Of a stretch of 55,522 nt of DNA, positions 1-43,046 are shown in pieces. Numbering within the stretch: position 1 is the first letter of the stretch; each line of letters opens with the position of its first letter. Source of the stretch: Anaerolineae bacterium (GTDB taxonomy: Bacteria > Chloroflexota > Anaerolineae > 4572-78 > J111); contig JAFGDY010000084.1 of the NCBI GenBank assembly GCA_016931895.1, positions 1 through 55,522 of the forward strand, read 5' to 3'. A program made the translations under genes and the position numbers. The notes under the pieces are model-generated. The model was given only the letters and a program-made list of their open reading frames with translations, did no database searches and was not told where the DNA came from.

Positions 1-111
1 GCTCCGAGACGGTCTTGAGACCTAATGACAATCGATCTGCCGTGTCCTGTCTTTTTATATTACCACGTTTTTCTCATACTAATGACACTTTTGGGCAAAT
101 GTCAACAGAAC

Positions 112-1242
112 CTAAAACCGGCAATAGTTACCGGCCACAATCACCAGGTCAAAAATATCCACCAGGCCATCACCGTTGATATCGGCCACGGAATCATTTG
201 AGCCGTAACGTGCAGCCACAAAGGACAAATCAAAAATGTCAATTCGGCCATCCCCGGTTACATCGCCACGAGGGGTAGGCGTGGGTATGACGGTTGGTGT
301 CGGTTTGGGGGTGGGGGTATAGGTCGGGGTGGCCGGAGGCTGGATGCCGGTGCATAACTGCTCGCTCCACACCCCCTCCCGAAAAGCCACCACGTACATG
401 GCCTTGGCTCCGCCGCCGCCATATTGAGGTCCCCCCAGAGTGATTGCGCCCGGATGGCTATTACAGGCATAGATAACAAAATAATCCAGATTATGGTCAC
501 TGACAAAGGCTTTGTTTTCAGTTTGCCGGAACAGGTCCATCCACCCAGGCGGCCGGCTTACCCGCCGGTCGAAATAGATGTAGACAAAAGCGGGTTCATT
601 CAACTCAAAGGTAAGGAAGGTTGAGGTAGAATTGTCCTTATCAGCGTTAGCCGTTTTTATACAGGGAAGATCATCATATTTATCCTTGGAAAAATTGGTG
701 AAAGTGTAATCTCGGTCCAGGTAATACTCATCTCCTATTTTGCACCAACTCAAGTAATAATTTTGGCCGGAGGCTACCCGGATATTTGAAACAAGATCGG
801 TTTCTTGCTGGGGATAGAGGCGCAGCGATGAATATTTTCCACCAAGCACATCTGCACCAAGATTGCCCTCATCTACCATAATCTCTTTGGTCCGGCCCTG
901 CCAATAGGGATGTTCATAGAGTTTGACGATGTACCAGCCCCGCAGTTGAACAGACGAGACATTATTATCGCCAAGAGGGGTTTGGCCCAAATCGGCAATG
1001 TCGGTAGTAGTATGGTAACAAACGCCCTTAAAATCTGGCTCCGCGTACAGGTAAACGCCGGGGGTATAATCGGGCGGGCAATCTGGACTGGACTGTAGAA
1101 GGTGGCGGGCAATTGCTTGCTCAGGAGGTATCGCCGCGGAAATCGGCTCAAGTTTCAAGAAAATGAGCAGCCAGACCATCACCCCAAAGGCAAACCCTGT
1201 AATTATGCTTTGTTTGGTAAAGAACTTACCCTTCGTACCCAT
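112..1242 (-). CDS. Exported crystallin-like protein with C-terminal dockerin-like domain
   Basis: 376 residues. An N-terminal hydrophobic segment (about residues 13-30) suggests a signal peptide or signal anchor, so the protein is probably exported. Residues about 62-145 resemble beta/gamma-crystallin or peptidase-inhibitor I36 folds, with the two-fold pattern of G-V-Y-L-Y...F-K-G-V-C-Y and Y-I-V-K-L-Y...W-Q-G-R. A Thr/Pro linker (about 300-325) leads to a dockerin type I-like end with two Ca-binding loops (D-V-T-G-D-G-R-I-D-I-F-D and D-I-N-G-D-G-L-V-D-I-F-D). Such domains dock to cohesins in cellulosomes, but in Chloroflexota-type genomes they often sit on surface proteins with no cohesin partner; none is seen here. 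The start overlaps the end of the MFS gene by 17 nt, so it is probably translated from the same mRNA as the kinase and transporter. The function of the middle part (146-300) is unknown. Confidence 0.75.
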   Translation of the reverse strand: MGTKGKFFTKQSIITGFAFGVMVWLLIFLKLEPISAAIPPEQAIARHLLQSSPDCPPDYTPGVYLYAEPDFKGVCYHTTTDIADLGQTPLGDNNVSSVQLRGWYIVKLYEHPYWQGRTKEIMVDEGNLGADVLGGKYSSLRLYPQQETDLVSNIRVASGQNYYLSWCKIGDEYYLDRDYTFTNFSKDKYDDLPCIKTANADKDNSTSTFLTFELNEPAFVYIYFDRRVSRPPGWMDLFRQTENKAFVSDHNLDYFVIYACNSHPGAITLGGPQYGGGGAKAMYVVAFREGVWSEQLCTGIQPPATPTYTPTPKPTPTVIPTPTPRGDVTGDGRIDIFDLSFVAARYGSNDSVADINGDGLVDIFDLVIVAGNYCRF

Positions 1243-26021: not shown

Positions 26022-29000
26022 CTAACGTTGTTTGTTTGGCCAGAGTGATGATACGGCCACTCCTGCGCCTAACAACACCAGCAAGAGCAGGGTTAGACCC
26101 ACCGGACTTGCGCCCGGTGCGCCTTCTCTTGCGCCCGTTTCCGGCAGGAAGAGAACCGGAATGGTAGGCGTAGGCGCCGGCGGCGGGGCCGGCGCAGGGG
26201 GCGGCGCAAGGGGCGGGGTATCGTCGTCATCGTCGTCGTCATCATCATCATCACCTCCATCGGGTGGCGGCGCAGGTATCTCCACGGGCGGGCTGTCATC
26301 GGTGCGCGGCGCGCCTTCAGCAAACGAAAGTTCAGCCGAGTTGTTAATAACCTGGGGCGGTGGACTGGCCAGATTATTGACCCGCGTTCTAATAGTCAAG
26401 AAGACCTGCTCGCCCGGAGCCAATACCGGAATGGTTATGACAATGGTATTGGACACAGCCGTAGGGATAGCCGGATTCCCGGTTGAAATATTCTCGGCAA
26501 TAACCGTAACACTGCTAATAACGTTATTGGGCGACCATATTGTGTAGTCGAGCAGGTCAACGGTTAAAGGTAAGGGATCGCGCACAATAAGGTTGGTGGC
26601 GTTGGCGTTAGAGTGTGGCGGGGCCGGGTTTTCAATGGTGACAAAGAACCGCACAATCTCTCCGGGTTGGGCCTGGGTGGGATCAACGGTTTTGGCAATG
26701 GCCGGGTCAACAATTCTGGTGACCGGCTGGGTGACCGTATCGGTTTGAGTTGGCGTTTCATTGCTGCCAATAATGGCCCGGTTGACCAGGTGAATAAGCA
26801 CTGTTTCCAGCGGTACAATGGGATAGAGTGCCGCAGCCGGGAGGGTGTCTGTTGAGATAGGCGTAATGGTAATGGTGGGGCTGGGGGTGATTTCCGGGGT
26901 GATGGTGATTTCCGGCGTTGGTTGCAGAGTGGCGGTGGGAGTGGCGGTGAGGATGGGCGTGGGGGTGATCTCCGGGGTGATGGTGATGGTCATTTCAGGG
27001 GTGGCGGTGGGGGCAGGCGTAGGCGTAACGATGGCGGTGGGGGTAGGGGTGGGGCTTGGGGCAGTTGGCGTGATCACGGCCGTGGCGCTTGGTTCAAGCG
27101 TAGCTGTTGCCGTTGGCGTTATTGTTGCTGTGGCCGCAGGCGTGCTGGCCGGCTCGGTTACCGCAGTAGGCGAAACTGTGGCCGTTGGTTCAAGCGTGGC
27201 CGTTGGTTCAAGCGTAGCCGTTGGCTCCAGTGTGGGTTCCGGGGTGGGCGCGAGGGTGGCGATTGGTTCAGGCCCAGGCGTATCGGCAGGCGCGAGTTCA
27301 GGCGTGGGCGTATCGGTTGGGGTAATTTGAGGTTGCTGCCTTAAAACGGCGGGTTGGGCCAGGCTGCCGGAGCCGCCGACCGCGCCGGCCAGAACTACTT
27401 GCGGCAATAGCGCTGCCTCGCCGGTAGCTGTTGGTTCGGCAGTAGATTCAATTACCGGTCCCGGTTCAGGGGTCGAGGTTTCGATGGGCGGCGCGGGGGT
27501 GGGAGTTGGCTCGACGGTCGGGGTTTCGGTAGGTGACGCCGGAGTGGGAGTTGGCTCGACGGTTGGCGTTTCGGTCGCCAGAGGGGTCGGCGTTTCGGTT
27601 GCGCTCGGCGCAAGCGTGGGGGTGGCAGTTTCGGTTGGTAATGGTGTGGCTGTTGCTTCCAGGGTTGGCACAGGCGTCGGCGATGGCTCGCTGGTCGGCG
27701 TTGGCTCGACGGTTGGCCCAAGTGTTGGCGTTGGCTCGATAGTTGCAGCAGGCGTGGTTTGGGTGGTAGGTGTTGGGATAGGGGTGGCGGTTACGGTGAG
27801 TGTTGGCGAAGCAGTGATGACGGGTGTGGGGGTTGGCCCAAGTGTTGGCGTGGCCGTAACGGTTATTTCCGAGGTGGCGGTAATTTCGGGCGTGGGGGTC
27901 GCCGGCAAGGTGATCACCGGGGTAGCGGTAATGGTCGGTGTTGGCGTAGGGGTAGGTGTGACCACGCCCGTGAGCGTGTTGGTATAACCAATGATGGGCA
28001 GGCCGGTGGTATCGCCCGAGAGCACAATCCAACCTTCCGGCGCGTGCATTACGGTCAAACCGGAGGCGGTATCGCTGAGGGTCATATTAACGGTAATGTT
28101 AAACTGGACGCACAGCGTCGTTCCGCCAGGGGCCAGGTCGCCTACCGGCCAGCGCAGGCCGGTTACGGTCACCGGCTCAGTACCGGACCAGGTGGCGCCA
28201 TTGTAAAACTCAACGCTGCCGGTGTTAGTGGTCGCGCTGCCCGGTACGTAGGTGGTGTTAAAGGGGATGAAGTCGGTGATGACCACGTTGGTGGCCAGCA
28301 GCGTGCCGCTGTTGGAGTAACACAGGGTGTAGGTCAATCTATCGCCGGGATTGATCTGGGCGGCCGGTTGCAGGCTTTTGGCAAAGTTGATCTGCGGCGA
28401 AAGAATGGTCACGGTGGCCGTATCGGTGTCGGTGACGGTGGTGGTGTTGGTATCAACCCCGGTTATCCGAACCAGGTTAGGCGTTGACCCTCCACCCGCC
28501 ACGTACCGCGCCGTGAAGGTAACCACAATGGCGCCCGTCATGCCGGGCGTAAAGTCGCCCAGGGCGGCAGTCAGGTCGTTCCAGGTGAGCGTGCCCGCCG
28601 GGGCGGTGGAATCCGGCGGAACAGTGGCGCTGTTATATTGTAAGTGGGCGGCGTTATAGGTGTCAACCAGGGGCATGGTCAACAGGGTGGTATCGCCGGT
28701 ATTTTGGACGGTCAAACCGTATACCACCTGCCCGCCCTGGGTAATGGGCGAGGCGCTCAACAAGGTTTTGGTAACCACTACCGCCGGATGCGTTTCCAAG
28801 GTGGTGGTGACGCTGTCGGTTTCGGTGACCACGTTGGTGCCGTCGTCGCCATCCACCACAACGGTATTGGTGTAAGAGCCGCCCACTTCGGTGGCGGCGG
28901 TGATTTGGAAGGTGACGGTCAAATAACCGCCGGGCGCAACCGGCCCCAAGTTATGCCAAATCAGGGTGACGGGCGGCGGCTGGATGGCCGGATTCTGGGG

Positions 29001-32000
29001 CGAGGGCATGCCGCTGACCTGGCCGCTGTTGTTAACGTAGGTGAATACGGCGGGCAAGGTATCGGTAACGGTGACGGTGATAGCGGTGCCGCCCGGATTG
29101 TAAACCTGGATGGTGTAAGTAGTCACCTGGTTGGGCGAAATAACTTTATGGGCAATGCTTTTGTTCACATCAATGAGCGTGACCAGCACCGTGCTGTTGT
29201 CGCCGTCGTCGGGGTCGGTATCAGAGGGCACGTGGTCGGTGTTATCGGTAGGAATGGGATTGCCTTCTTCATCCCGGCCGTCAACGGCGCGGGCCACGTT
29301 GGTGTAAACCCCGCGGGGGGTGGTATCGCTCACCAGGGTTTGGAACGTTAAGATAAAGGCCGCACCGCCGGGCAGGGTTTGGTACAGCGGCCAGAAAAGA
29401 TTGAGACCGCTGGCCGTGGGGTTGGTGATGGGGCCGGCGCCGTTGAGAAAACTGGTGTTGGGGATGTAGCTAAAGTAAACGGCCGGCAGCGTATCGCTAA
29501 CGTTAACCCCGTAGGCCGGGCCGCTGCCTACATTGCGCACGGTAAAGCTCCAGGTAATAATGTCTCCCGGCGCAACCGGGCTGGGATAAACGGTTTTATT
29601 GGTGACCAGGGCCGGCACTTCAACCGTGATGGCGTCGGTATCGGTGACGGTATGCGGCCCGCCGGCGTCTGTCCAGGTAGCCCGGGCATTGTTGGGATAG
29701 GGCCGGGTATCCGTAACGGTGGGCCGGTTAGCCACTGTAGCCGTAAAGGTGATGATGAGCGGTTGCGGATTGGCCGCCGGGTTGGTGACCGAACCAAAAT
29801 TCCAGGTGACAACAACCGGCGCGGCGCCGTTGTTGGGGACGGAAACGGTTTGGACGGGGGGCGGAGCCGGCCCGCTAAAAACGGCGTCGAGGTTATAGAT
29901 CAAACCCGCGTTCAGGGTGTCGGTGACAATCAAGTTGTGGATGGTGCCCGCCGGCAGGTCAAGCTGAACGGTGTAAGGCACGGTGCCGCTGATGGTGCGG
30001 GTTTTATCCGTATCGGCGACTCGTTTGGTGAGCGTAACCGTGCCGCCGGTGGTCACGGTTTCGGTGGTAGCATCGCCGTAATCGTCTAGCGGGCCGCCCG
30101 GGCCGTCATCGCCGTTGCGCTCGTCGGGATTGTCGCCGGGGATGCCGGTCCAGGTGGTGGCGGCTATGTTGGTTAAAATTTGGCCCGGCTGGAGAGTGTC
30201 GGACATGCGGGCGGTATAGGTGATGACCACCGTGGTGCCCCGCGGGATCACGTTAAAGCCCCATTGTAACGTTTGCCCGGTCTGGTTGAACGAGCTGGCC
30301 AACGGGCTGGAGTTCTGCCCCAAAATGTCCAGGCCCAGAGGAATAACGTCGGTAATCACCACGTCGTAAGCATCGGCGGTGCTGGCGGCGGTGTGCGATA
30401 CTTGCAGGGTGTAAAGCAAAATATCACCAGGCACGCCGGTATTGGGCGCGGCCACCTTGGCAATGTTCAAATCCGGCTCCACAATAACCACCGTCACCGG
30501 CGGGGTGGTGGTGATGCTGCCGGTGTCGCGGTGAATCATAGTGGCGGTGTTGGTGAAGATAAGGCCATCTTGGTTGGTGATAACGTTGGCCACAACGCCG
30601 GTAATGATGATTTGATATTGATCGGCGGCCGTGATCACGGGCCAGGTTGCCCGCACTTGATTGCCGATGACGGTCACGCTGCCGCCAGAAGCGACCGGCT
30701 CTATTCTGGCCGTCACTTTGATCAGGTTGAGCGGCACGTTGTCGGTGACCACCACGGTGGAGAGGGCGTCGGCAACGGACGGTTGAGGAACCGTAATCAC
30801 GTAGGTTACGGTTTGGCCGATGGCGGCCGAGAGCGGCAGCCGGGTTTTGCTGATGCCGGCGTTGATGGTTTTGTAGAAGCCAAAGTCAAAGGTGTAGTTA
30901 TTGACCAGCGTGATGGGGGCGGTGGCGGTAACGGTGCCGCCCGCGCCCAACGCGCCGTTGACCACGCCGTTGCTGTCGAGGCCGTTATCTCCCCCCACAA
31001 AGGGCGGGGTGGGTGTAAAGTCGCGCAGCGGGCCGCCGGGGGTAAAATTGTCGGCGGTGAGGGTGATGGTGTAAAGCTGGCCGGCCGGAACGGTAAAGGT
31101 GTACAGTCCGCCGGCGTTGGTGGTGGTGGTAAAGATGCGCCCGTCGGGATAAGTCACTGTAACCGTGACCCCGGCAAAGGGGATGTCGGTGCCGTCCTGG
31201 AGGCCGTCGCGGTTGACATCGTGCCACACGTAGTTGCCCAATTCCACCAACGGCACCAGGCCAAAGTCAACGGTGGGGATGTAGGTTGAGCCATTGGAGT
31301 TACTAACAGTATTGTTACCCTGGGCGCCGCTAGCGCCGGGAACCAGGGTGACCGGATTGCTGCGAATGGCGTTGGCGGCGGTGAAGATGACGCCGTTGTC
31401 GTCGTGGTCCACGTTGTTGTTGGGATTAAAGGAGGAGGGGATGTTGGTGCTGCTGGTATAACCGGCGGGCGGCAAAATTTCAACCGAGTAGGTGCCGGAG
31501 ACAAGCCCGGTAAAGGTGTAACGGCCCGTAGCGTCGGTGGTGGTGCTGGCAATGAGCGTGCCGGTAACGTTATACAACCGCACAGGCACATTTGGCGCGG
31601 GCAGTTCGCCGGTATCGGTGACGCCGTTGTTGTTGGTGTCAAACCACACGTAATCGCCCAGTGATAGTTGGTAGAAGCCAAAGTCAATGGTCAGGTTTGA
31701 ATTGGGGTCGGTGTCGCCGTCATCAACCGGCTCGCCGTTGACGGTGAGCGAAACCGGCGTGCTGGCCACAAAACCGCCCGAACCGAGCGTGCCGGAAACC
31801 ACGCCGTGGTCGCGGTCGTTCAGGTCGCTGTTGCCGCCCACAAAGCCGTCGCTGTTTTGGTAGTTGGCCAGCGGCCCCGCGCCGATAAAGTTGGTGCTGG
31901 TAACCACCACCAGGTAGGTTTCGGTGGGGTAGCGGGTGGGCAGCAAATTGGGAAACAGGTAATAGCCGCCGCCGCTGGTGGTAGTGGTGGAGATGAAGCG

Positions 32001-35000
32001 GTCAATACCGGGGGTAAAAACACCGTCGCCGTTGCTGTCCTGGTACAGTTCCACGGCCACGCCGGGCACGCCCACTTCGCCGGTGTCGGTGACGCCGTTG
32101 TTGTTGGTGTCAAACCACACGTAATCGCCCAATGAGACATGATGCACCAGGCCAAAGTCAACGGTGGGGTTGTGGGTGGAGCCGTTGGCGTTGTTGACGG
32201 CATTGTTGCCCTGGTCGCCGGCATAACCGGGGGTCAAGGTGACCGGCCCGCTACGGACCACGTTGGTGGCGACAAAAGTAACGCCGTTATCGTCGTGGTC
32301 TATGTTGTTGTTGGGGTTAAAGGAGGAGGGGATATCGGTGCTGCTGGTGTAACCGGTGGGCATTACAATTTCCACGTAGTAAGTGCCGGAAAGCAGGTTG
32401 GTGAAAGTATAGTAGCCGTTGAGGTCGGTAGTGGTGGTGGCAATGAGGGTGCCGGTAACGTTATACAACTGCACGGGGATGTTTGGCGCGGGCAGTTCGC
32501 CGGTATCGGTGACGCCGTTGTTATTGTTGTCAAACCACACGTAGTTGCCCAGAGAAAGTTGGTAGAAGCCAAAGTCAATGGTCAGGTTTGAATTGGGGTC
32601 GGTGTCGCCGTCATCAACCGGCTCGCCGCGCACGGTCAGCGATACGGCGGTGCTGGCCACAAAACCGCCCGAACCGAGCGTGCCGGAAACCACGCCGTGG
32701 TCATGGTCGTTCAGGTCGCTGTTGCCACCCACAAAGCCGTCGCTGTTTTGGTAGTTGGCCAGCGGCCCCGCGCCGATAAAGTTGGTGCTGGTAACCACCA
32801 CCAGGTAAGTTTGGGTGGGGGAGAAACTGGGCAGCAGGTTGGTAAAGGTGTAGTGGCCGCCGGCGTTGGTAACGGTGGTGGAAATAAGGCGGTCAACGCC
32901 GGGCGTAAAGTCGCCGCTGCCGTCGCTGTCGTAATACAGCTCCATAGCCACGCCGGGAACGCCCACCTCGCCGGTATCGGTGACGCCGTTGTTGTTGGTG
33001 TCAAACCATACGTAGTTGCCCAGGGACACCAGTTCCACCAGGCCAAAGTCAAAACTATAATTATTGTCGGTAATGACGGGCGTGGTAATGACCAGCCCGC
33101 CGTCGAGCGGCACGCCGTCGGAATCAAGTTCATCATTGCCGCCCCGGTTGATGAGAGTGTTGGTATAGTTTTGCAGCGGGCCGCCGGGGGCAAAATTTTC
33201 GGGCACCAGGGTAATGGTGTAAGGCTGGCTAACGGGTACGGTAAAGGTGTAGTAGCCGGTAGGCGTGGTGGTGGTGGTAAAGGTCCGCCCGTCGGGGCAG
33301 GTGAGGGTAATGGTGACGCCGCTGCGGCCGTTGCCGGCTCCATCGTTTTGCACCCCGTCCAGATTTTCGTCAAGCCACACGTAGTTGCCAATTTCTACCA
33401 ATTTGACAAAACCAAAGTCCAGAGTCAGGTCTTCGGTGAAGGCGGGGGTGAGGGTGGTGGTAGTGGCGTACCCCAGGCCCAGGAAGGTATCGGTGATGCG
33501 GGCGTTGGAATCGCTGATGGTGTTGGTGGGGCTAACGTAGGGCAAGGTTTGGGTGAAGGGCGCCAGCGGCCCGGTGGTATAGCTGGCGCTGGAAATACGC
33601 ACGGTGTAGGTGACGTTCAAGGGCAGGTATTCAAAAATATAATAACCGTCGGTGAGGCCGTTGTTGGCGGTGGTGGTGGCGCTGATGAGTTGGCCGGTGG
33701 CGCTGTTGAACAACTCCAGCACCACGCCGTTGATGCCGTACTCGCCGGGATGGGTGTCCTGGATGCCGTCGTAGTCAAGATCGTACCATACATAATCGCC
33801 CAGCCGGCCCATCGGCCAGTCAAAGCGGTGGGTGTCGGTGTCGGTGTAGGGGCGCACGCCGGGGATGGTTTGGGTAAGCGAGGTGGTGGTAATGCCCACG
33901 GTGTTGGTAAACAAATTGCTGTTGTAGATGGCCTCGGATAAACGGGCGGTGTAGGTGAATTGCAGGGTGTTATCGGGCGGCGGCGGCGCATCAAGAAAAT
34001 CCAGGGTCCAGGTAATGGCCCGGCCGCCGGGCTGCAGCACGCCGCCGCCGGAGATGTTGGTAACGCTGATGCCGGCGGGCAGGTAGTCGGTGATAGCCAG
34101 GCTGTAGGCCGGACCGGCACCGCTGTTGACAACGGTGATGGTATAAAGCGCGGTCTGCGGGTTGCTCAAGAGAGAGGCGGTTTTGCTGATGCTGATACGC
34201 GGCTCGTAGACGTTGGTGGTGACCACGTTGGTTTGGGTGATCTGTCCGGCGGTGGCGTGGGTCATGACCGCGCTGTTGGTGATGGCGTCGCCATCATTGG
34301 CGTCGTTGGCGGGGTTGGGCCATTCGTGCGAGATGCGGGTGGTGACGGTAATGATCACCTGAGTGTAACTGGGGATGCGCGAAACATCAAGCCGGAGATT
34401 GTTGGTTAAACCGTTGACATTGGTAATGACGACCCCCGGCGCGGCCGAGGCGCTAACGTCCAACACCCGCAGCCGGGCGTCAATGGTGTCGGTTAGAATA
34501 ACGTTGTACAGGTTGGCGCTGATGGGCCGGCTGGGGGCAATGATGGTGTAGGTGACCAGCGTGCCCAGCGTGGCCGTAGGCGGAGGGTCAAAGGTGACCG
34601 CCTTGAGCGGCCGGGCGTCTACGGTGCGGATGGCGGTTGAATGAGAGCCGCCGCTGTAATCCCGGGAGATGGTGGGAATAGGATTGCTGTTGCCGGGCCA
34701 GTTATCGTAGGCCAGGCCGGCCTGATTGGCTAAAATGGTGTTGGCGGTGATGCCGGGCGAGACGCGCAGCACCACGGTTAAGGTGATGGCCCGGTGATTG
34801 ACCGCGCTGATAGTTGAGGTCAGTTGATTGACGCCCCAGAGCAATACGCCCGTAGCGCCGGGAATGGGCGCCGGTGGAGCGGTGACGGCTGAGGCCGGGT
34901 CGTCGCTTTGCAAGGTGTAGGTCATCAGGCTTGTTCCGGCCGGAATGGCGTCGGTGATCACCAGATCGTAACCGGGTAGGGCGGCCTGGCTGGAGATGGT

Positions 35001-38000
35001 CAAAGTGTAAGTGACCAGGTCGTTGGCCGCCACGTAGCAGCCAGTTTGGCCAAAGCGGGTGACCAGCACATCGTCAATATCTACAAAGCTATTGTTGCTG
35101 GCATCAAACAATATTTCTCCGCTGCTGTAGGCAGTGTTTATTACATTGATTTGTTGGATCCCATCTACATAAACTTCAATCTGCGAGCCTTCGGCGCGTA
35201 TCTCAAAGTGATGCCAGCTACCCAGGCTAATTGTGCTAATGCCATTGCCGATGGTTGTGCCGTCTCGTCTGAGTTGGATATTGCCGTTTGGCAGCCAGCG
35301 TAATATGTAACGATTTGTCCCGTTCCTGCGGAAACGGATATCAAAATCGGCGCTGTCGGTGATGGCTTTGCGGCCCATATAGCTCATACTGAAATCGGAT
35401 ATATTGTTCAGCGCCGCATTGGTGCTGTTGCCATCGCCTGAGAAACGGAGCAAGCCAGTTGGGGTTACATTGATGTCTGGGTCCGTGGTGGTCCAGTTTT
35501 CTCCGGTACCGTTGTTGAAGTTGGCCTGGTCAATTGTCGCCCGGCAACCGTCAGGCGTTACATAAGACTTGCCAATGTGTAATATCGGCTCCACAATATC
35601 CACATCGGCGGTGTCGCTGTAAACGTAGGGCTGGCCGTCGTCAACGTAGGTCATGGTGATGCGGTTGCTCAAACGGACGCCATTTTGGTTGCTGTTTATA
35701 TTTTTAATTACGCCCGTAATCACGCCATCAATCTGCACCGTGCCGGAGAGATCGCCCAAAAACCACACGACCGGCCCACTGGGATAAGCTCCGCCGGAAA
35801 TAATGGGTGTGGTGGTGATGATGGTGTCGGGGCCACCCTGGTTGCCGTCGCCGTCGTAGGTGGCCTGTAAAAACGAGGCCACGTAACCCAGGCCGGTTGG
35901 CAGGGCGTCGGTGATGACCAAACTTTCGTAAACCGTATCCACATCGGGCAGGAAGGTGGTAAAGGTAAAAACAACCAGGCTGCCGATAGTGCCCGTTTGG
36001 AGAGCCGGGTTTTTGATGAATTCTTGCAGTAGGGTGGTGTAGGCGGTATCTGTAAGGGACGCGGTTTCGCAGCCAACGGCGCAAACCGCGGTGGCGGTGA
36101 CCACGTTGCGATTCAGGCCCGACGCCAGCAAAATGGCGCTGACGGTGGCCGTCCACACGCCGCCGGGAGCGATGTCGGCGGGCGTCCAAGTGATAACCGA
36201 ACCCGACCCAAACGGCCCGGCGCCGCTTGAGCCGGCGCTGGCGGTAACGGAGATATAATTGCTGCCGACAACATCGGTCACAATCACGTTTTCGGCAATG
36301 CCGTCGCCGGTGTTGGTCAGGCGGATGGTCCAGGTGACCGGATCGTCCACGTCAACGGTTTGGGTATCGGGCAATTTGTTCAAGGCAAACGCCGGGGTGC
36401 GAACCTGGAGATTGACGGTGTGGGTGGTGGTGAAAGGCCCCCTGTCGGTGCACAGGGCATGGTTATCAAAGCTCATAGTAGCCGTGACCGGCTGGCCGTT
36501 GTCTACCGGGCACGCGCCGCTGATGGCACTGTTTTTAACCCGCAACACCAGAATAAATTCGTAGGGATTCTGGCCGTCGTGGCCCGGAATTTCATCCCAC
36601 TTAAAGACTGGGGCGCTGCCAGTGCCGGTAATGATCTGGGTGAGGGTCAACCCGGAACTGACCGTGTGGCTGTACACATAGCCGGCGGGCAGGGTGACGG
36701 TGAGGGTGTTGGAATAAGCCCTGGCCCCCAGGTTTCTGATTCTAATGGGAATATCTCCCTCGCACGTTTGCAGCGGGCCTGGCAGAAGCGTGACGGCCAG
36801 GTTGGGGCCGGGGTCCAGCCGGGCGGTATCCTGGGGCACCACGGTGCTGGTGCAGCCGTCGGCGTCGCAGCCAAAGCGGAGGCTGGCGGTGTTGGTGGTA
36901 ACGTTGGCGCAAACAATGCTACCGGTGACGGTGCCGGTGATATAGAAAACCAGGGGCGCGTCGGGCGGTTCAATGTCGCCAATGTCCCAGGTGATGGTGC
37001 GGCTGGCGGTGGTGATATGGGGGGTGTAAGAAATAGTGGCCGTGGCCGTTATAAATTCAAAGTTGTCGGGCCAGATATCCGAAAGAACCACATTATGGGC
37101 CACGTAGGAGTTGAGCGTTTCGCGGTTGTCAACCTGTATCCGCCAAATCACCGTATCGCCGGGCGCAGCGTAGACTATTTCGCCAAATTGTCCGCCCGGC
37201 GCCCGACCCTGTTTGCTGACAGTCATGTCCGGTTTCAGGGTGCGTAGCGTCAGCGCGTTTTCAGTATAACCCAGGTAGTTGTTGCAGGGGCCAACGGCGC
37301 TGGCCTGGGCAAAAGATTGCGGGGCGTTGGGCGGGTCGCACGAGGTGCGGACAGGAACGGTGATGCGCGCCAGGTAGAGCGCCGGCAGTTCGTTGAACCA
37401 GGTCATTACCCCGGTAGGCGCAGAGATGGCTTTCCAGATGAGCAGCCTGGTAATTGTGCCGGTGCCGGTGATGGTTTGTATCTCCGGGGTAAAGGCCGTG
37501 GTGGTGGCAATGGCCACGTTATCGGCATTGATAATGGTCACGGTAATCGGCGCGCCCGTTACCGGCACCAGGTTGAGCAACGTTTCGGTGATATTAAGCT
37601 GGTAAAGGCTAACATCGGGCGAGGCGTTTTTGGTGGTAAAAATCACGTTGCCGTCATCGCACATGGGCAGGTCGGCGGTTTCGCCGTTGTTGGTCAGCAG
37701 GTAGGGGTCGGGCGTGTTAAAATCAATGGCGCGTTGGAGTTGGGCGCAGGTTGAGCCAAAACAGCCCAGGTGGGCCGTAATGGTTACGGCCAGGGGGGTA
37801 CACAGGAACACCCGGGCCGTGACTGTAACTTCACGCTGTTCATTGGGGGCCAGTTGCGAGATGGTGAAAACAGGCGTGTCGGGCGGGCCGGAAATGGGCA
37901 GCGTGGGCGCAATGATGTTGCCGGTGCCGCTATTGGTGGTATAGGTAAAAATTGACAGGCCGTTAACGGTATTGGTGACAACCACATTGGTAGCAGTCAA

Positions 38001-41000
38001 GTTTCCGTTGTTGGTGACAAAAAATTTCCAGATCACTTCTTTGTTGCGCACGGTGTAGCGAATAGGTGTGGCAAAAAGGATGACGTTGGGCGTACGGTAG
38101 GTGTGAGCCAGGTGAGCCGTATGAGCATAAGTGTTGGCGCAGCGGCTGTTGAAGGTAACGCCGCCGTCCCAGTCGGCCTCGTTGGTGCAGTTGATGTCCA
38201 GATCAAAGGTGATCTCCCCGCCGTTAATGTCTTGGGTGGCCGGGAAGGTAAAGGTGATAACGCCTCGCCCGCCGGGCAGGGCGGTATTGGTGACCACGGT
38301 CACTTGCGCCATGGACGGCAACCCGCCGCCGGTGGCAAAATTGCGAGCCGAAGCGATCTCGCCCGCCGATGAGGTAAAAGTCACTACCACGTGGTCGGCC
38401 AAGCGGCCGGGGCTGTTATCGGTAAGGCGGATCACGGCCCGGTTGGTTTCGCACTTGTCCAACTGCGCGGGTGAGAGGCTGATGGACAAATCGCCCCGTT
38501 CAATGGTCAGGTAAAGGGCCTGGTTAAAGGTCTGGTCACCGGCGCAGGCCTGGTTGTCGCTGACCCCGGGCAGGAACAGCCGCGACCAATCGTAAAAGGT
38601 TTGGCTCGACGCGCCGTTCAAGGCCCCATCGGTCACATAAAGGGTGTAGGTGATGTGCAAGGTGATGGTTTGGGTGGGTGCATTGGCGGCTTGCAAAGCG
38701 GTCAGGTCAAGCACCAGTTCCCCGTTGGGGCCGGTGGTGGGGGTAATGTAAGCGGTGTAATCCCCCCCGTTCACGGTCACCGACAGCGTATTTGAATAGA
38801 CCAAGGGCGTTGCACCGGGAGGCAGGGCGCCGCCGCCGCTGCCGCCCAGGGCGTCGGTAAATACTGCGCCGGCCCAGGTGATGATGGTGCTACCTGTCAC
38901 CTGGTAGGTGTTGACAATCAAAAAGCCGTTGTTGGCGCAGGTTTCGGCGTTGGAGTTTGCGCTGCGGCTGCCGCTGACGCCTTCTTCATTTTCAATGGCC
39001 GTATTCACTTGAGCGGTGACCGTAATATCGTTACAGCCGGGACAGGTGACGCCGGCCAGGGCGGTCACGCGATTGTTGACAATCTCCGACGCGCCGCACA
39101 GGCCGCCGGTGGTGGTCACGGCCCGGCTGGTGTAAACCAGGGTTACGGAAAAGGCAGCCGCGGTGGGGTCAAACAACAGGCTGACGGTTTGGCCGCCGGT
39201 GGCCGACAGGCCGTTCACGTTGCCGCCGCTCTGGTTGGCCACGGTTGGTCCGCCGATGATGGGAAATTGCGAGGGCACAATGTCGGTGAGAACAATGTTG
39301 CCGGTAATGGCCTCCCGGCTGCCGGGCGGCACCGAGTTGGGGTTGCTGCCCCATAAGGTAACCTGGTAAGTGAACACCTCGCCGCTGCTGACAATGGGCG
39401 GGCCGCTTTTAGACACGTTCAGGGTGGGTATCTGCCCCTGGCCAAACTGGTAACTAAGGCCGGCCGGCGCGCCGGTAAAGGGATTGCTGTCGCAAATATC
39501 CTGGTAGAGGGGGGTAAAACTGATCTGGCCGCTGCCCGCTCCGCACACCGCGGCCCGGGGCCGCACTTCAAAGGTCAACGTAACGCCGGTAGTGGGACCG
39601 GGCAGGGTGCCGGTGGGGCTGCCGCCGTTAAACGTAAACAGGCCGCTGCCCGGGTCATAGAGCCAGGGCGCGCCCACCGAACCGGGCACAACCTCCAAAA
39701 AGCCGGTGTTCAGGCCGGAGGCCAGCCGCAGGTTGCCGGCCGGTCCGCCGGAATTGGCAACGGTAATGGTGACCGTGGGCGTAACCACGCTGCAATAGGG
39801 AAAGTTAAGCTGGGGCGGCGCTTGAATGCTTACATTGGGTATTTGGGGCGTAAACAAAATACTGGCCGTTGATTTGACCGGATTGGTGATGTAGGCGTCC
39901 CCTTCCAGGTTGCCGCACTCCCACCAGGCCCCCCCCACGTTGGTAAAGTTGCAGGCTTGCACCGTGCCTACCACCGTATAAACCATGGTCTGGTTCACGT
40001 TTAAAACGGGAATAGTGGCGCTAAAGGGCAAATTGCCGGTGGGCGGGATCAGGTGTTCGCCGCCTTCGTCGGTGATCACGGCGTTATACACTTTGCCCAG
40101 GCCCGTGTTTTGCACAATCAAATTCCAGGTGATGGGCTGGCCAAAATCGGGCGTGCCCAGGTTTTGCAGGGCCGGTTCTTTGCGGATAACCAGGTTGCCC
40201 CGGCCGGTGGTCACGTTCAGGCCGCCGGTATTGAGTTCAATAGGCCCCGCCGGGGGCGGGTCGGCGTTGTAGCGCGCGCCCACCCGTAGTTGCTGGCCCG
40301 ACTGCGCGCCGCAGGTGGCCCGTAATTTAAAATTGAGGGTGATCACCTGGCCGGAGGCCAGGTCCAGGGTGATGCCGGGCGTCCACACAATTGAACCGGG
40401 GGCGGTGGTAATTGAAGTAAATGTTAAAAAAGTTGTGCCGGAAATTAATTGATCGCCGCCGTCGTGGATGAAAAAGGTTTGATGGGTAGCAGTCAGATAA
40501 ACGCCGTAGGCCGTTTGGGTTGAATCGTTGCGGATAACGGCGGTGTAGACCTCGCCCTGCCCGGCGGGGTTGCCGATGCTGGCTACGTCCGGGCCAATAA
40601 CATACACCGAAAGCGAAGAGGCCGGAATAGCCCGCTGCAAAGGACGCGCCGGGGGCGAGAGGGGCGGGCTGGCCGGGGGATTATTTCTGCCGATAAACCA
40701 AGCGGGTAAAACAGCCGATTCCCGCATGCCCGTCGCCGGAGACAGTTCTGAATTTTGGCCGGCAGCATTGAACCAAGCCGGCAAAACCGCGGCGAGGGGC
40801 CGACGATTTATCGTTGCCGGCTCAAGGTCAAACCACCCTGGTAAAATATCGGCGGTCGTTGGTCGTTGGTCGTCGGTCGTTCTATCAACAAACCCACCCG
40901 GCAAAATATCAGCGGGTTTGGCTGAGGATGGGACCGGGGCCGGTAAATGGGCCAGGGCCGCCGGTTTAGCCAGAGACAACCCGGCGGCGGCGGCAAAATC

Positions 41001-41240
41001 CACGCCCGGTGTGGCGGAGGGATCAAACCAGGGCGGAATGATGGTCGCAGCAGTGGCGGCAGCAGGCGTCAAGGATTTTTGCCTGAAAATAAATTCCGGC
41101 TGCGGAGGGGCGTGCACATTTTTAGCCGGGGTGAGCAGTTCTTCCCTGGCAAGCGCGGGCGCGGCCTGGGGCGGCCATAAATTAACAATGAGGGCAAATA
41201 AACTGATAAATGAGCCTAATTTTTGTTTGAATGATGGCAT
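26022..41240 (-). CDS. Giant LPETG-anchored surface protein with DUF11 and SdrD-B repeats
   Basis: 5072 residues, one unbroken frame. Residues 1-31 are a signal peptide (hydrophobic F-I-S-L-F-A-L-I-V-N-L, cleavage after A-P-A-L-A). Next comes a proline-rich region with five I-L-P-x-W-F motifs (67-182). The body (about 205-2470) is mostly DUF11-type beta domains (T-V-T-V-T-N-T-G, V-V-I-T-D), with one LamG-like domain inserted at about 1893-2067. Residues about 2474-3467 are SdrD/B-type domains (G-D-Y-V-W-F-D-T-N-N-N-G), including a recent 297-residue duplication. More DUF11 domains follow, then a Thr/Pro-rich stalk (about 4426-4797), one more DUF11 domain, eleven Asp in a row (4997-5007), a proline run, L-P-E-T-G (5032-5036), a membrane helix and a K-Q-R tail. 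This is the standard sortase substrate layout, so it is probably linked to the cell surface as an adhesin or matrix fibre. No sortase gene is in the window. Confidence 0.93.
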   Translation of the reverse strand: MPSFKQKLGSFISLFALIVNLWPPQAAPALAREELLTPAKNVHAPPQPEFIFRQKSLTPAAATAATIIPPWFDPSATPGVDFAAAAGLSLAKPAALAHLPAPVPSSAKPADILPGGFVDRTTDDQRPTTADILPGWFDLEPATINRRPLAAVLPAWFNAAGQNSELSPATGMRESAVLPAWFIGRNNPPASPPLSPPARPLQRAIPASSLSVYVIGPDVASIGNPAGQGEVYTAVIRNDSTQTAYGVYLTATHQTFFIHDGGDQLISGTTFLTFTSITTAPGSIVWTPGITLDLASGQVITLNFKLRATCGAQSGQQLRVGARYNADPPPAGPIELNTGGLNVTTGRGNLVIRKEPALQNLGTPDFGQPITWNLIVQNTGLGKVYNAVITDEGGEHLIPPTGNLPFSATIPVLNVNQTMVYTVVGTVQACNFTNVGGAWWECGNLEGDAYITNPVKSTASILFTPQIPNVSIQAPPQLNFPYCSVVTPTVTITVANSGGPAGNLRLASGLNTGFLEVVPGSVGAPWLYDPGSGLFTFNGGSPTGTLPGPTTGVTLTFEVRPRAAVCGAGSGQISFTPLYQDICDSNPFTGAPAGLSYQFGQGQIPTLNVSKSGPPIVSSGEVFTYQVTLWGSNPNSVPPGSREAITGNIVLTDIVPSQFPIIGGPTVANQSGGNVNGLSATGGQTVSLLFDPTAAAFSVTLVYTSRAVTTTGGLCGASEIVNNRVTALAGVTCPGCNDITVTAQVNTAIENEEGVSGSRSANSNAETCANNGFLIVNTYQVTGSTIITWAGAVFTDALGGSGGGALPPGATPLVYSNTLSVTVNGGDYTAYITPTTGPNGELVLDLTALQAANAPTQTITLHITYTLYVTDGALNGASSQTFYDWSRLFLPGVSDNQACAGDQTFNQALYLTIERGDLSISLSPAQLDKCETNRAVIRLTDNSPGRLADHVVVTFTSSAGEIASARNFATGGGLPSMAQVTVVTNTALPGGRGVITFTFPATQDINGGEITFDLDINCTNEADWDGGVTFNSRCANTYAHTAHLAHTYRTPNVILFATPIRYTVRNKEVIWKFFVTNNGNLTATNVVVTNTVNGLSIFTYTTNSGTGNIIAPTLPISGPPDTPVFTISQLAPNEQREVTVTARVFLCTPLAVTITAHLGCFGSTCAQLQRAIDFNTPDPYLLTNNGETADLPMCDDGNVIFTTKNASPDVSLYQLNITETLLNLVPVTGAPITVTIINADNVAIATTTAFTPEIQTITGTGTITRLLIWKAISAPTGVMTWFNELPALYLARITVPVRTSCDPPNAPQSFAQASAVGPCNNYLGYTENALTLRTLKPDMTVSKQGRAPGGQFGEIVYAAPGDTVIWRIQVDNRETLNSYVAHNVVLSDIWPDNFEFITATATISYTPHITTASRTITWDIGDIEPPDAPLVFYITGTVTGSIVCANVTTNTASLRFGCDADGCTSTVVPQDTARLDPGPNLAVTLLPGPLQTCEGDIPIRIRNLGARAYSNTLTVTLPAGYVYSHTVSSGLTLTQIITGTGSAPVFKWDEIPGHDGQNPYEFILVLRVKNSAISGACPVDNGQPVTATMSFDNHALCTDRGPFTTTHTVNLQVRTPAFALNKLPDTQTVDVDDPVTWTIRLTNTGDGIAENVIVTDVVGSNYISVTASAGSSGAGPFGSGSVITWTPADIAPGGVWTATVSAILLASGLNRNVVTATAVCAVGCETASLTDTAYTTLLQEFIKNPALQTGTIGSLVVFTFTTFLPDVDTVYESLVITDALPTGLGYVASFLQATYDGDGNQGGPDTIITTTPIISGGAYPSGPVVWFLGDLSGTVQIDGVITGVIKNINSNQNGVRLSNRITMTYVDDGQPYVYSDTADVDIVEPILHIGKSYVTPDGCRATIDQANFNNGTGENWTTTDPDINVTPTGLLRFSGDGNSTNAALNNISDFSMSYMGRKAITDSADFDIRFRRNGTNRYILRWLPNGNIQLRRDGTTIGNGISTISLGSWHHFEIRAEGSQIEVYVDGIQQINVINTAYSSGEILFDASNNSFVDIDDVLVTRFGQTGCYVAANDLVTYTLTISSQAALPGYDLVITDAIPAGTSLMTYTLQSDDPASAVTAPPAPIPGATGVLLWGVNQLTSTISAVNHRAITLTVVLRVSPGITANTILANQAGLAYDNWPGNSNPIPTISRDYSGGSHSTAIRTVDARPLKAVTFDPPPTATLGTLVTYTIIAPSRPISANLYNVILTDTIDARLRVLDVSASAAPGVVITNVNGLTNNLRLDVSRIPSYTQVIITVTTRISHEWPNPANDANDGDAITNSAVMTHATAGQITQTNVVTTNVYEPRISISKTASLLSNPQTALYTITVVNSGAGPAYSLAITDYLPAGISVTNISGGGVLQPGGRAITWTLDFLDAPPPPDNTLQFTYTARLSEAIYNSNLFTNTVGITTTSLTQTIPGVRPYTDTDTHRFDWPMGRLGDYVWYDLDYDGIQDTHPGEYGINGVVLELFNSATGQLISATTTANNGLTDGYYIFEYLPLNVTYTVRISSASYTTGPLAPFTQTLPYVSPTNTISDSNARITDTFLGLGYATTTTLTPAFTEDLTLDFGFVKLVEIGNYVWLDENLDGVQNDGAGNGRSGVTITLTCPDGRTFTTTTTPTGYYTFTVPVSQPYTITLVPENFAPGGPLQNYTNTLINRGGNDELDSDGVPLDGGLVITTPVITDNNYSFDFGLVELVSLGNYVWFDTNNNGVTDTGEVGVPGVAMELYYDSDGSGDFTPGVDRLISTTVTNAGGHYTFTNLLPSFSPTQTYLVVVTSTNFIGAGPLANYQNSDGFVGGNSDLNDHDHGVVSGTLGSGGFVASTAVSLTVRGEPVDDGDTDPNSNLTIDFGFYQLSLGNYVWFDNNNNGVTDTGELPAPNIPVQLYNVTGTLIATTTTDLNGYYTFTNLLSGTYYVEIVMPTGYTSSTDIPSSFNPNNNIDHDDNGVTFVATNVVRSGPVTLTPGYAGDQGNNAVNNANGSTHNPTVDFGLVHHVSLGDYVWFDTNNNGVTDTGEVGVPGVAVELYQDSNGDGVFTPGIDRFISTTTTSGGGYYLFPNLLPTRYPTETYLVVVTSTNFIGAGPLANYQNSDGFVGGNSDLNDRDHGVVSGTLGSGGFVASTPVSLTVNGEPVDDGDTDPNSNLTIDFGFYQLSLGDYVWFDTNNNGVTDTGELPAPNVPVRLYNVTGTLIASTTTDATGRYTFTGLVSGTYSVEILPPAGYTSSTNIPSSFNPNNNVDHDDNGVIFTAANAIRSNPVTLVPGASGAQGNNTVSNSNGSTYIPTVDFGLVPLVELGNYVWHDVNRDGLQDGTDIPFAGVTVTVTYPDGRIFTTTTNAGGLYTFTVPAGQLYTITLTADNFTPGGPLRDFTPTPPFVGGDNGLDSNGVVNGALGAGGTVTATAPITLVNNYTFDFGFYKTINAGISKTRLPLSAAIGQTVTYVITVPQPSVADALSTVVVTDNVPLNLIKVTARIEPVASGGSVTVIGNQVRATWPVITAADQYQIIITGVVANVITNQDGLIFTNTATMIHRDTGSITTTPPVTVVIVEPDLNIAKVAAPNTGVPGDILLYTLQVSHTAASTADAYDVVITDVIPLGLDILGQNSSPLASSFNQTGQTLQWGFNVIPRGTTVVITYTARMSDTLQPGQILTNIAATTWTGIPGDNPDERNGDDGPGGPLDDYGDATTETVTTGGTVTLTKRVADTDKTRTISGTVPYTVQLDLPAGTIHNLIVTDTLNAGLIYNLDAVFSGPAPPPVQTVSVPNNGAAPVVVTWNFGSVTNPAANPQPLIITFTATVANRPTVTDTRPYPNNARATWTDAGGPHTVTDTDAITVEVPALVTNKTVYPSPVAPGDIITWSFTVRNVGSGPAYGVNVSDTLPAVYFSYIPNTSFLNGAGPITNPTASGLNLFWPLYQTLPGGAAFILTFQTLVSDTTPRGVYTNVARAVDGRDEEGNPIPTDNTDHVPSDTDPDDGDNSTVLVTLIDVNKSIAHKVISPNQVTTYTIQVYNPGGTAITVTVTDTLPAVFTYVNNSGQVSGMPSPQNPAIQPPPVTLIWHNLGPVAPGGYLTVTFQITAATEVGGSYTNTVVVDGDDGTNVVTETDSVTTTLETHPAVVVTKTLLSASPITQGGQVVYGLTVQNTGDTTLLTMPLVDTYNAAHLQYNSATVPPDSTAPAGTLTWNDLTAALGDFTPGMTGAIVVTFTARYVAGGGSTPNLVRITGVDTNTTTVTDTDTATVTILSPQINFAKSLQPAAQINPGDRLTYTLCYSNSGTLLATNVVITDFIPFNTTYVPGSATTNTGSVEFYNGATWSGTEPVTVTGLRWPVGDLAPGGTTLCVQFNITVNMTLSDTASGLTVMHAPEGWIVLSGDTTGLPIIGYTNTLTGVVTPTPTPTPTITATPVITLPATPTPEITATSEITVTATPTLGPTPTPVITASPTLTVTATPIPTPTTQTTPAATIEPTPTLGPTVEPTPTSEPSPTPVPTLEATATPLPTETATPTLAPSATETPTPLATETPTVEPTPTPASPTETPTVEPTPTPAPPIETSTPEPGPVIESTAEPTATGEAALLPQVVLAGAVGGSGSLAQPAVLRQQPQITPTDTPTPELAPADTPGPEPIATLAPTPEPTLEPTATLEPTATLEPTATVSPTAVTEPASTPAATATITPTATATLEPSATAVITPTAPSPTPTPTAIVTPTPAPTATPEMTITITPEITPTPILTATPTATLQPTPEITITPEITPSPTITITPISTDTLPAAALYPIVPLETVLIHLVNRAIIGSNETPTQTDTVTQPVTRIVDPAIAKTVDPTQAQPGEIVRFFVTIENPAPPHSNANATNLIVRDPLPLTVDLLDYTIWSPNNVISSVTVIAENISTGNPAIPTAVSNTIVITIPVLAPGEQVFLTIRTRVNNLASPPPQVINNSAELSFAEGAPRTDDSPPVEIPAPPPDGGDDDDDDDDDDDTPPLAPPPAPAPPPAPTPTIPVLFLPETGAREGAPGASPVGLTLLLLVLLGAGVAVSSLWPNKQR
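26133..26147 (-). other. Sortase recognition signal LPETG
   Basis: Encodes L-P-E-T-G at residues 5032-5036, 36 residues from the end, followed by a hydrophobic segment (L-T-L-L-L-L-V-L-L-G-A-G-V-A-V) and a basic end. This three-part signal is the one cut by class A-type sortases between Thr and Gly. Confidence 0.85.
26220..26252 (-). repeat. Eleven-codon aspartate run
   Basis: GAT/GAC codons only, giving D x 11 (residues 4997-5007) just ahead of a proline/alanine linker and the LPETG signal. Mixed codons mean it is not a simple trinucleotide slip, so the acidic run may be selected, for example to bind calcium or keep the linker extended. Confidence 0.8.
26850..27965 (-). repeat. Thr/Pro-rich stalk-coding low-complexity region
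   Basis: About 370 residues of T-P-T-P, T-A-T-P, P-T-P-E and L-E-P-T-A units, with GGCGTGGGGGT-like DNA repeats on the plus strand. Such stalks span the cell wall and are often glycosylated. One DUF11 domain separates it from the LPETG signal, so the stalk is not immediately next to the anchor as is usual. Confidence 0.85.
31254..32144 (-). repeat. 891-bp tandem repeat unit, copy 1
   Basis: Begins with CACCAGGCCAAAGTCAACGG; the same phrase recurs at 32145, and CACCAGGCCAAAGTCAA at 33036, in each case exactly 891 bp on. The unit encodes 297 residues with two SdrD-B-type domains (G-D-Y-V-W-F-D-T-N-N-N-G). Long identical stretches with copy 2 point to recent duplication. Confidence 0.85.
32145..33035 (-). 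repeat. 891-bp tandem repeat unit, copy 2
   Basis: Second copy, in register with copy 1 and in frame. Near-identical DNA includes the runs around 31660-31860 and 32560-32760. Differences are mostly synonymous or cluster in a few places, for example the G-N-Y / G-D-Y change at the domain start. Confidence 0.85.
35050..35560 (-). other. Low-G+C island encoding a LamG-like domain in the giant gene
   Basis: Residues about 1893-2067 break the DUF11 series. They read as a concanavalin-A-like jelly-roll, with G-S-W-H-H-F-E-I-R-A-E-G, I-E-V-Y-V-D-G-I-Q-Q-I and F-V-D-I-D-D-V-L-V. The DNA is clearly richer in A+T than on either side. Such domains commonly bind sugars or host and matrix proteins. The composition suggests that the domain was acquired and inserted later. 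Confidence 0.7.
40695..41042 (-). repeat. Five I-L-P-x-W-F motifs at the mature N-terminus
   Basis: The motifs I-I-P-P-W-F, I-L-P-G-G-F, I-L-P-G-W-F, V-L-P-A-W-F and V-L-P-A-W-F start at residues 67, 112, 132, 152 and 177. Spacing is irregular in a flexible Pro/Ala-rich region, suggesting short linear binding motifs rather than a folded repeat. Confidence 0.7.
40854..40886 (-). repeat. In-frame copy of the GACGACCAACGACC repeat
   Basis: Encodes D-R-T-T-D-D-Q-R-P-T-T (residues 119-129), which is foreign to its setting. On the plus strand it reads as GGTCGTTGGTCGTTGGTCG, matching the right arm of the intergenic element at 23343-23388. It lies between two I-L-P-G-x-F motifs and keeps the frame open. 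Confidence 0.7.
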
Positions 41241-41300: not shown

Positions 41301-43046
41301 TTAAGGTACGTTTTCCAGAATAGTCTGGCTGCCGGGCCGGTCGTTTATATTTTGACCAATATAAGACCAGACCAGTTGCCCCGATTTATCAATAATGAAA
41401 ACAGCCGGTGTGGCTACCCCATCGCCCAGTAGATTAAAAACTCCGTAGGCCTCGGCCACATGGTGGTTCGGGTCGGCCAAGATAGGAAAGGAAACCCCCG
41501 CGATCTGGGCCATAAGTTGCGCCTGGGCCATATCTTGCACCGCCAGGGCCAGCACTTCGGCCTGGCGGTCTACAAATTGTTGGTAATGAGTTTGCAAATC
41601 CACGATTTGCTGGCGACAGGGGCCTCAGGTTTGCCCCCGGTAAAAAACCAGGACCACCGTGCGTTTATCTCGATAATCTTGCAAAGAAACAGCTTCACCG
41701 CTGCCGGCAGTGAGGCTAAAATCCGGGGCCAGGGCGGCGGCAACAGGCGGAGTTTCGGTTGGAGGGTGAGGGTCATTTCCGCTGCGGGCCTCATCCGCCG
41801 GTATTGCCTGCGCCGCCTCGTCCGTTTCGGTTGATACCTCATCCGTCTCGATTGACGTAGGTTCGTCATTTTCGTCTGGCGTGGTCTGGCTGGCGGCCTG
41901 GGCCTGCTGCTCTGCTTGTTCTAACAAGGGGGTCAGGTAGGTATCAATAACGGCTTCATCCAGCGGGCCAACGTGTCGGGCGGCAACAAGGCCGTTGGCG
42001 TCAATGAACAAGGTGGTGGGGATGCCGCGCACCTCGTAAGTAAGGTCGCTCACGGCGCCGTCCGGGTCAAGGGCCACCGGAAAATTTAACTCCAGTTCTT
42101 CTACAAAAACCGCCACCGCCGCCGGGTCTTCTTTAACGTCAACGGCGATCAAGCCAATTTTATCCCCGTATTTAGCGTAAGCGGCTTGCAGGGCCGGTAA
42201 TTCCCGTTTGCAGGGGGGGCACCAACTGGCCCAAAAATTGAGAATGGCCGGTTGGCCTCTAAAATCGCTCAAGGCGAGTGGCTCACCGTTAAGCTGCGGC
42301 AGAGTAAAATCGGGCGCAACCTTGTTTGCATAAGGCCCGGTTGGTATTTCCGATGGAGAGACCAATGCCGGAGATTCATCGGCAGCGGATTCGTTTGGGG
42401 TCACTGCTTCAGGTGGCAAATCTGAGGAGGTTGAAGTCACCAGGGAATGATACAGCCCAATTTCAGCTTCGCTTCGGGTTTGGGCCAGCCAGGCGTTCAA
42501 ATCCCCTTCCTGGCCGGCCAGTTGGTTCAAGGCTGCCTCAACCTGAATCAAACGCCCCACTCGCTCAACCAAATCGGCCCGGTTCAATCCGGCTTGTTCC
42601 AGAACCAATACCATCTCCTGGTCCGTTACTTGCCAATTTTGGGTTAAAAGTTGAATTCTGGCTTCAATATCTTCTTTAGAAGCGGGGGAGGGCGAGCCGG
42701 CTTCAAGAACAATGATTTCATTGATCAGGCGATCCAGGGTTTCTTCGTTGGTGGCCAGGGGTTGTTGGGCCAGTCGGTTCATGACCGCGTCAAGGCGGGT
42801 TGCTTTTTGCCAGGCGGCCCGGGTGATGATCTGCCCGTTGACGGTGGCTACAACCTCATCATTGTTTAACGCCGGTTCGGCGGTTTTTTCAAGGGGGATA
42901 GGTTCAGGCGTTAGCTCATTGGCGCCGGCCACGCTTGTTTCCGGTTTGGCCAACTGGCCCATCACCAATAAGCTGCCTACAACAGCGGCTATGGCCAGTC
43001 CTAAAATGATAAGAATTGAGAAGATAGATCCATGGGGTTTGGGCAT
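41301..43046 (-). CDS. Probable selenoprotein: TlpA-type thioredoxin fused to a UxxC peroxiredoxin-like domain
   Basis: 581 residues if the in-frame UGA at 41625-41627 is read as selenocysteine 474. The N-terminus has a membrane anchor (about 10-30). Residues about 60-170 resemble a SurA/PrsA-type N-terminal helical domain (T-V-N-G-Q-I-I-T-R-A-A-W). Residues about 235-385 are a TlpA/ResA thioredoxin with W-C276-P-P-C279. After an acidic linker, residues about 445-581 are an AhpC/TSA-like domain: V-V-L-V-F-Y-R-G-Q-T-U-G-P-C-R-Q-Q, then A-E-V-L-A-L-A-V and P-A-V-F-I-I-D-K-S-G. The UGA falls exactly on the first redox residue, and homology runs straight across it in the same frame. A SECIS-like hairpin follows. 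Probable role: thiol-disulfide exchange or peroxide reduction outside the membrane. A plain Cys-to-stop error is the alternative. It ends 60 nt before the giant surface-protein gene, with no terminator between. Confidence 0.82.
41594..41610 (-). promoter_or_regulatory. Candidate bacterial SECIS hairpin
   Basis: On the minus strand GCAAATC-GTG-GATTTGC, a perfect 7-bp stem with a 3-nt loop beginning with G. The loop starts 22 nt after the UGA (41625-41627). Bacterial SECIS elements are hairpins just downstream of the UGA, inside the coding region, with a small loop bearing a G at its 5' side that SelB binds. Position, stem and loop all fit. Confidence 0.75.

Follow-up and report, generated by a model that had tools for sequence, protein, structure and literature searches.

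Peroxiredoxin-like selenoproteins with a UxxC redox motif (PF00578) constitute a known group (PMC1088965, PMC2398784, PMC13188914), and the protein described here resembles them in its AhpC/TSA-type domain, in carrying UxxC in place of TxxC, and in the exchange of selenocysteine (Sec) and cysteine among members. It differs in that this domain forms the C-terminal part of an anchored SurA-ResA-peroxiredoxin protein, a combination not among the fusions reported in PMC2398784, namely those with PP2C, with secretin-N and with unknown domains, and the SelD fusions. With ResA, TlpA, and CcmG it has in common a membrane-anchored thioredoxin fold and the WCPPC motif, whereas here a SurA core precedes that fold, a Sec-containing peroxiredoxin-like domain follows it, and the gene partner encodes a giant surface protein. 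The SurA and PrsA foldases share its SurA core fold, to which the N region and C-terminal helix both contribute, but redox domains here replace the PPIase; the isolated SurA core acts as a chaperone, and few homologues, about 0.5%, consist of the core only (PMC11401910). The MdbA-type oxidoreductases of actinobacteria, associated with sortase-assembled pilins, are likewise envelope thiol oxidoreductases, on which disulfide-containing surface polymers depend, although they are separate enzymes of another thioredoxin-fold type, and the abstracts of PMC9974433 and PMC5478893 mention no Sec and no fusion to SurA. As for giant surface proteins, Litorilinea aerophila has yielded isolated hooks, whose hook-forming protein, GhlA (6596 aa), was identified by mass spectrometry (PMC13319060); that paper also cites GhpA as the grappling-hook protein of Aureispira. 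A term search of PMC13319060 found no mention of chaperone, thioredoxin, disulfide, or SurA.

The window, i.e., the whole stretch of DNA analysed (55,522 nucleotides, contig JAFGDY010000084.1 of the Anaerolineae assembly GCA_016931895.1), contains the following features.

41301..43046, minus strand: complete selenoprotein gene, 581 aa with read-through, stop TAA (dN/dS, orthologues)
42957..43028, minus strand: predicted N-terminal membrane anchor, residues 7-30 (AF2 helix 7-30, hydropathy)
42438..42866, minus strand: predicted SurA core chaperone domain without PPIase, residues 61-203 (Pfam, PDB profile, model)
41892..42326, minus strand: predicted ResA/TlpA-like thioredoxin-fold domain, residues 241-385 (NCBIfam, Foldseek)
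41304..41738, minus strand: predicted peroxiredoxin-like domain with U474-G-P-C477, residues 437-581 (Pfam AhpC-TSA, PDB profile)
41625..41627, minus strand: predicted Sec codon UGA; relatives have UGA or TGC/TGT at the same column
41594..41610, minus strand: putative SECIS hairpin, 7-bp stem, loop GUG, gap of 21 nt between UGA and loop (folding, covariation)
26022..41240, minus strand: giant secreted DUF11 protein of 5072 aa, of the hook-like giant family; predicted client

Translated with TGA as Sec, 41301-43046 (minus strand) yields a single 581-aa protein whose sole internal TGA is residue 474, within the motif VFYRGQT-U-GPCR. A sequence-only reading of the window had already noticed that the frames 41625-43046 and 41301-41603 share a reading frame and are separated solely by UGA, and that read-through gives V-F-Y-R-G-Q-T-U-G-P-C with Sec at the first redox position; all of this is borne out, the UGA falling at the first position of the UxxC motif. 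It had also foreseen that a standard pipeline would return a truncated protein plus a small GTG-started orphan, and mechanical ORF calling does cut this selenoprotein gene in two, giving a product of 473 aa (41625-43046) and an ORF of 100 aa with a GTG start (41301-41603). The only Cys or Sec residues of the whole protein are 276, 279, 474, and 477, i.e., two redox pairs.

The N-terminal chaperone-like portion, overlooked by the earlier TlpA-plus-UxxC picture that had captured both redox domains, was recognised through Pfam SurA_N_3 (best E 3.3e-10 among the orthologues) and SurA_N, which matched most orthologues. The best match of its profile against the PDB was E. coli SurA (2pv3, E 2.3e-5), in an alignment that includes the N region as well as the C-terminal helix, and its model (pLDDT 92.8) could be overlaid on SurA 24..428 with Z 12.1 and 2.9 A over 137 residues, the PPIase domains being skipped. 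No parvulin PPIase domain was found in 25 members, so that the domain is better termed SurA-core-like than a SurA. The middle domain, with its CPPC at Cys276/Cys279 (42210-42221), scored 179.7 bits against the NCBIfam ResA model NF002854 (cut-off 170), and Foldseek placed it on ResA 2h1b with TMt 0.93. The C-terminal domain, whose redox site reads UxxC, exceeded the Pfam AhpC-TSA cut-off; its closest solved relative is M. tuberculosis AhpE (E 5e-17, TMt 0.86), in the alignment with which U474 lies on the peroxiredoxin Thr and C477 on the peroxidatic Cys. It scored below the cut-offs of both the SelL-related NF040769 (72 bits against 120) and the TUGYCR redoxin NF053656 (24 bits against 100). 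All structure models were built with Cys substituted for Sec. Taken from these profiles and models, the domain composition and the envelope location of the protein are predicted with high confidence.

The architecture varies among relatives. Most Cys orthologues have a lipobox where the Sec form has its membrane anchor (hydropathy and lipobox scan), and the ResA domain is absent in some relatives (G014, G022). A sister clade of SurA-Sec proteins (L026, L072, L075, L076, L078, L080, and relatives) bears a CGUGPD motif, which has a Cys at -2 and no longer the resolving Cys at +3, with the UGA and SECIS retained. The literature searched, which covered few subscription journals, yielded no match for SurA-selenoprotein fusions or Chloroflexota selenoproteomes, nor for the three-part architecture and its link to hook-like giants. 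What is new is the protein architecture and the gene context; the Sec domain is not, and the earlier announcement of a new selenoprotein therefore holds for the architecture only, because that domain belongs to the known peroxiredoxin-like UxxC group.

The earlier reading had recognised the selenoprotein and passed over its conserved partner, the giant gene that begins 60 nt downstream on the same strand. The encoded protein contains 33 Cys, 30 of them within the first 2068 residues and about 28 near-invariant, and terminates in LPETG, a hydrophobic stretch, and a basic tail. Of the 22 loci whose downstream DNA allowed a test, 19 have a homologous giant as the next gene, the exceptions being G021, G120, and G018; in a further genome (G003), a giant follows a contig-end fragment of a selenoprotein-type gene. 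The aligned N-terminal part of the giants shows conservation of Cys in 94% of 449 cells, as against 72% for Trp and less than 50% for every other residue, a disparity that marks structural disulfides. Nine other giants had upstream DNA, and six of these are preceded by a SurA-thioredoxin fusion lacking the peroxiredoxin domain. When the Cys-rich N region of the giants was searched across the class, it was found in 22 genomes; it co-occurs with the SurA core in 17 of 22 versus 47 of 374 genomes (Fisher p 7e-11), counts which are rough since kinship was ignored and several giants known from their neighbourhoods were missed by the search. No convincing promoter or terminator could be called between the selenoprotein gene and the giant gene, and no upstream genes are common to the loci except for two genes in both G004 and G009. 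Clusters of antisense ORFs near the loci are explained by the giant gene, whose complementary strand they represent.

The window giant is, judged by its sequence, a member of the hook-like giant family. The giant of genome G187 is 6596 aa long, the exact length of GhlA, and its N-terminal hydrophobic stretch fits too; we infer the species identity of G187, and its giant is almost certainly GhlA. Residues 75-1903 of this protein align with the window giant at 31% identity over 1944 columns (E 4e-170) with the cysteines in register. On that identification, GhlA is homologous to the window giant across the N-terminal Cys-rich region, with matching cysteines, but has 6596 rather than 5072 residues, and the LPETG end is the window giant's. 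In G187, a SurA-thioredoxin gene without the Sec domain lies 39 nt upstream of the giant. The G187 giant (L190) carries 88 cysteines, most of them in close pairs that recur over the full length of the filament, unlike the window giant, in which they are almost confined to the first 2100 residues. The tail of the window giant resembles a sortase signal, and the Litorilinea-like giant has no such tail.

Being encoded directly before a disulfide-rich giant, the selenoprotein is probably the giant's own folding helper. The explanation that we consider the best, and on the whole probable with its Sec decoding and domain make-up included, is that of a co-encoded chaperone-redox foldase for the hook-like giant. 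SelB and tRNA-Sec would decode the UGA at 41627-41625 under the guidance of the hairpin starting 15 nt later, and the product would sit membrane-anchored and extracytoplasmic, with a SurA core, a ResA-like CPPC domain, and a peroxiredoxin-like UxxC domain. The SurA core would hold the unfolded giant as it emerges from the membrane, the two redox domains would make, shuffle, or repair its disulfides, and the peroxiredoxin-like Sec domain would act as a fast redox partner. That the giant is the client, a relation which we infer, is likewise rather more probable than its converse, in spite of several observations against the link: giants occur without an adjoining fusion (the second copy in G021, G051, and G111), the loci G021, G120, and G018 lack a giant, and in the UGPD clade no giant lies beside the SurA-Sec gene where tested. 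The conserved gene order may also partly reflect common descent, and, ResA/TlpA relatives being mostly reductants, a disulfide-forming role is not implied by the fold. Extended to Anaerolineae and related Chloroflexota, the proposal becomes a dedicated system of two genes: a SurA-core/thioredoxin fusion, with a Sec-containing peroxiredoxin-like extension in some lineages, would fold a giant filament protein of the grappling-hook type and form its disulfide bonds; to this we give about an even chance. If true, selenium takes part in building a cell-surface appendage, and the pair offers a testable, selenium-linked candidate for the post-export folding of very large Cys-rich surface filaments such as grappling hooks. 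The hooks already obtained from Litorilinea aerophila (PMC13319060) make the idea directly testable in its Cys-only version.

The selenoprotein might instead be an envelope enzyme of general antioxidant or repair function, acting as thiol-peroxidase and disulfide reductase, which the giant adjoins through inherited gene order only. Its closest folds, ResA (a reductant) and AhpE (a peroxidase), agree with such an enzyme, as does the presence of the pneumococcal surface reductant Etrx2 (2yp6) among the structure matches. The single-domain peroxiredoxin-like Sec genes, moreover, have unrelated neighbours and no adjoining giant. This reading is nevertheless unlikely, given that the pairing with the giant lasts across several families even though the giants are only about 30-45% identical, that SurA-thioredoxin forms without the peroxiredoxin domain precede giants too, and that a SurA core suggests a protein as client.

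In a more specific version of the foldase explanation, oxidative folding would be driven by peroxide: the peroxiredoxin-like Sec domain would reduce peroxide and hand oxidising equivalents to the CPPC domain, which in turn would oxidise the giant. An analogy exists in the endoplasmic reticulum, where peroxiredoxin 4 and PDI cooperate. Such a relay would suit a protein whose sole Cys and Sec residues are the two redox pairs, which has Cys at the peroxidatic position and Sec where peroxiredoxins have Thr, and whose predicted client contains many conserved cysteines, most of them paired. We nonetheless hold it doubtful: the UxxC motif is closer to thioredoxin than to the peroxidatic TxxC, and the UGPD clade has no equivalent of C477. 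The evidence for the decoding of the UGA as Sec is as follows.

The assembly (6.06 Mb, 97% complete) encodes selA (584 bits), selB (331 bits), tRNA-Sec (67 bits), and selD (357 bits), so that every component proposed for checking by the sequence-only reading is present; selD (C62) itself carries a TGA. A C-terminal-domain search of 60 relatives recovered ten orthologues, in each of which the only stop is a TGA at this column, and both UGA and hairpin persist in ten or more further Anaerolineae genomes. In nine genomes of family f6, a protein of the same three-domain architecture has Cys (TGC/TGT) at the Sec column; the expectation of UGA or Cys there thus holds in relatives and in the wider class set. 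Misreading of a TGT or TGC codon, the sequencing error that the earlier reading had allowed for, is refuted since the same UGA occurs in independent genomes. The Cys forms did not arise through loss of the Sec machinery, as the f6 Cys genomes retain selB and tRNA-Sec, and the tree (quick method) indicates at least two separate Sec/Cys swaps within the Anaerolineae group. tRNA-Sec was found in 21 of the 22 genomes tested; SelB is represented by fragments in G006 and G008 and by no hit over the cut-off in G018, these being draft or incomplete genomes. Downstream of the UGA, dN/dS is well below 1 in the orthologue pairs tested, showing that purifying selection continues in frame.

The hairpin GCAAATC-GTG-GATTTGC is present exactly as first described, with its stem strands at 41610-41604 and 41600-41594 and its loop at 41603-41601; the distance needs correction, in that the stem starts 15 nt after the UGA (a 14-nt spacer) and the loop lies 21 nt away rather than 22. 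Folding of the RNA after the UGA, proposed as a check, produced the hairpin in windows of 38 and 53 nt, whereas the minimum-energy fold of 63 nt lacked it (z -0.3); single-sequence folding energy is hence weak evidence, and covariation was used instead. Among 11 orthologues, 77 of 77 hairpin pairs are formed and four of the seven pairs have changed on both sides, a score reached by none of 500 shuffles and not approached by slides; the chance of seven Watson-Crick pairs at this place is 0.3-4% per sequence, given the amino acids and codon usage. The published bSECIS limits (PMC13188914) specify a loop of 3-9 nt with G in the first two positions, a stem of 4-16 bp, a UGA-loop spacing of 16-37 nt, and an MFE of -7.5 kcal/mol or lower, and the hairpin lies within them (GUG loop, 7 bp, 21 nt, -10.2 kcal/mol in 38 nt). 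In the Cys orthologues that share the three-domain make-up, 3-5 of the seven stem pairs form, as against 6-7 in the Sec forms.

It is hardly credible, in the face of a UGA conserved in independent genomes, selection in frame beyond it, a covarying SECIS, replacement by Cys in relatives, and Sec machinery in the genome, that the UGA is a true stop followed by a relic or separate gene of 100 aa, as the splitting of mechanical ORF calls at this codon would have it. On comparative sequence grounds, decoding of the UGA at 41627-41625 as Sec is a virtually certain prediction. The covarying SECIS, the Sec/Cys exchange, and the loss of the SECIS in Cys forms give this three-part selenoprotein architecture, a chaperone with two redox domains, unusually clear backing.

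Related frames were encountered alongside. The single-domain UPFCR/UPYCR relatives (L027, L029-L032, L034, L035, L040, L043) have another SECIS, with a 6-bp stem and the loop AGUU 25 nt after the UGA. Two more peroxiredoxin-like frames in the window's genome contain one internal TGA each (G000 C209:8825-9244 and C135:2439-2855), and there seem to be several selenoproteins in this genome. In G001, of the same genus, an in-frame UGA occurs in a TPVU peroxiredoxin fused to a C-terminal glutaredoxin-like domain (CTPWCPAC) at L036 1504-2265, apparently a further selenoprotein fusion.
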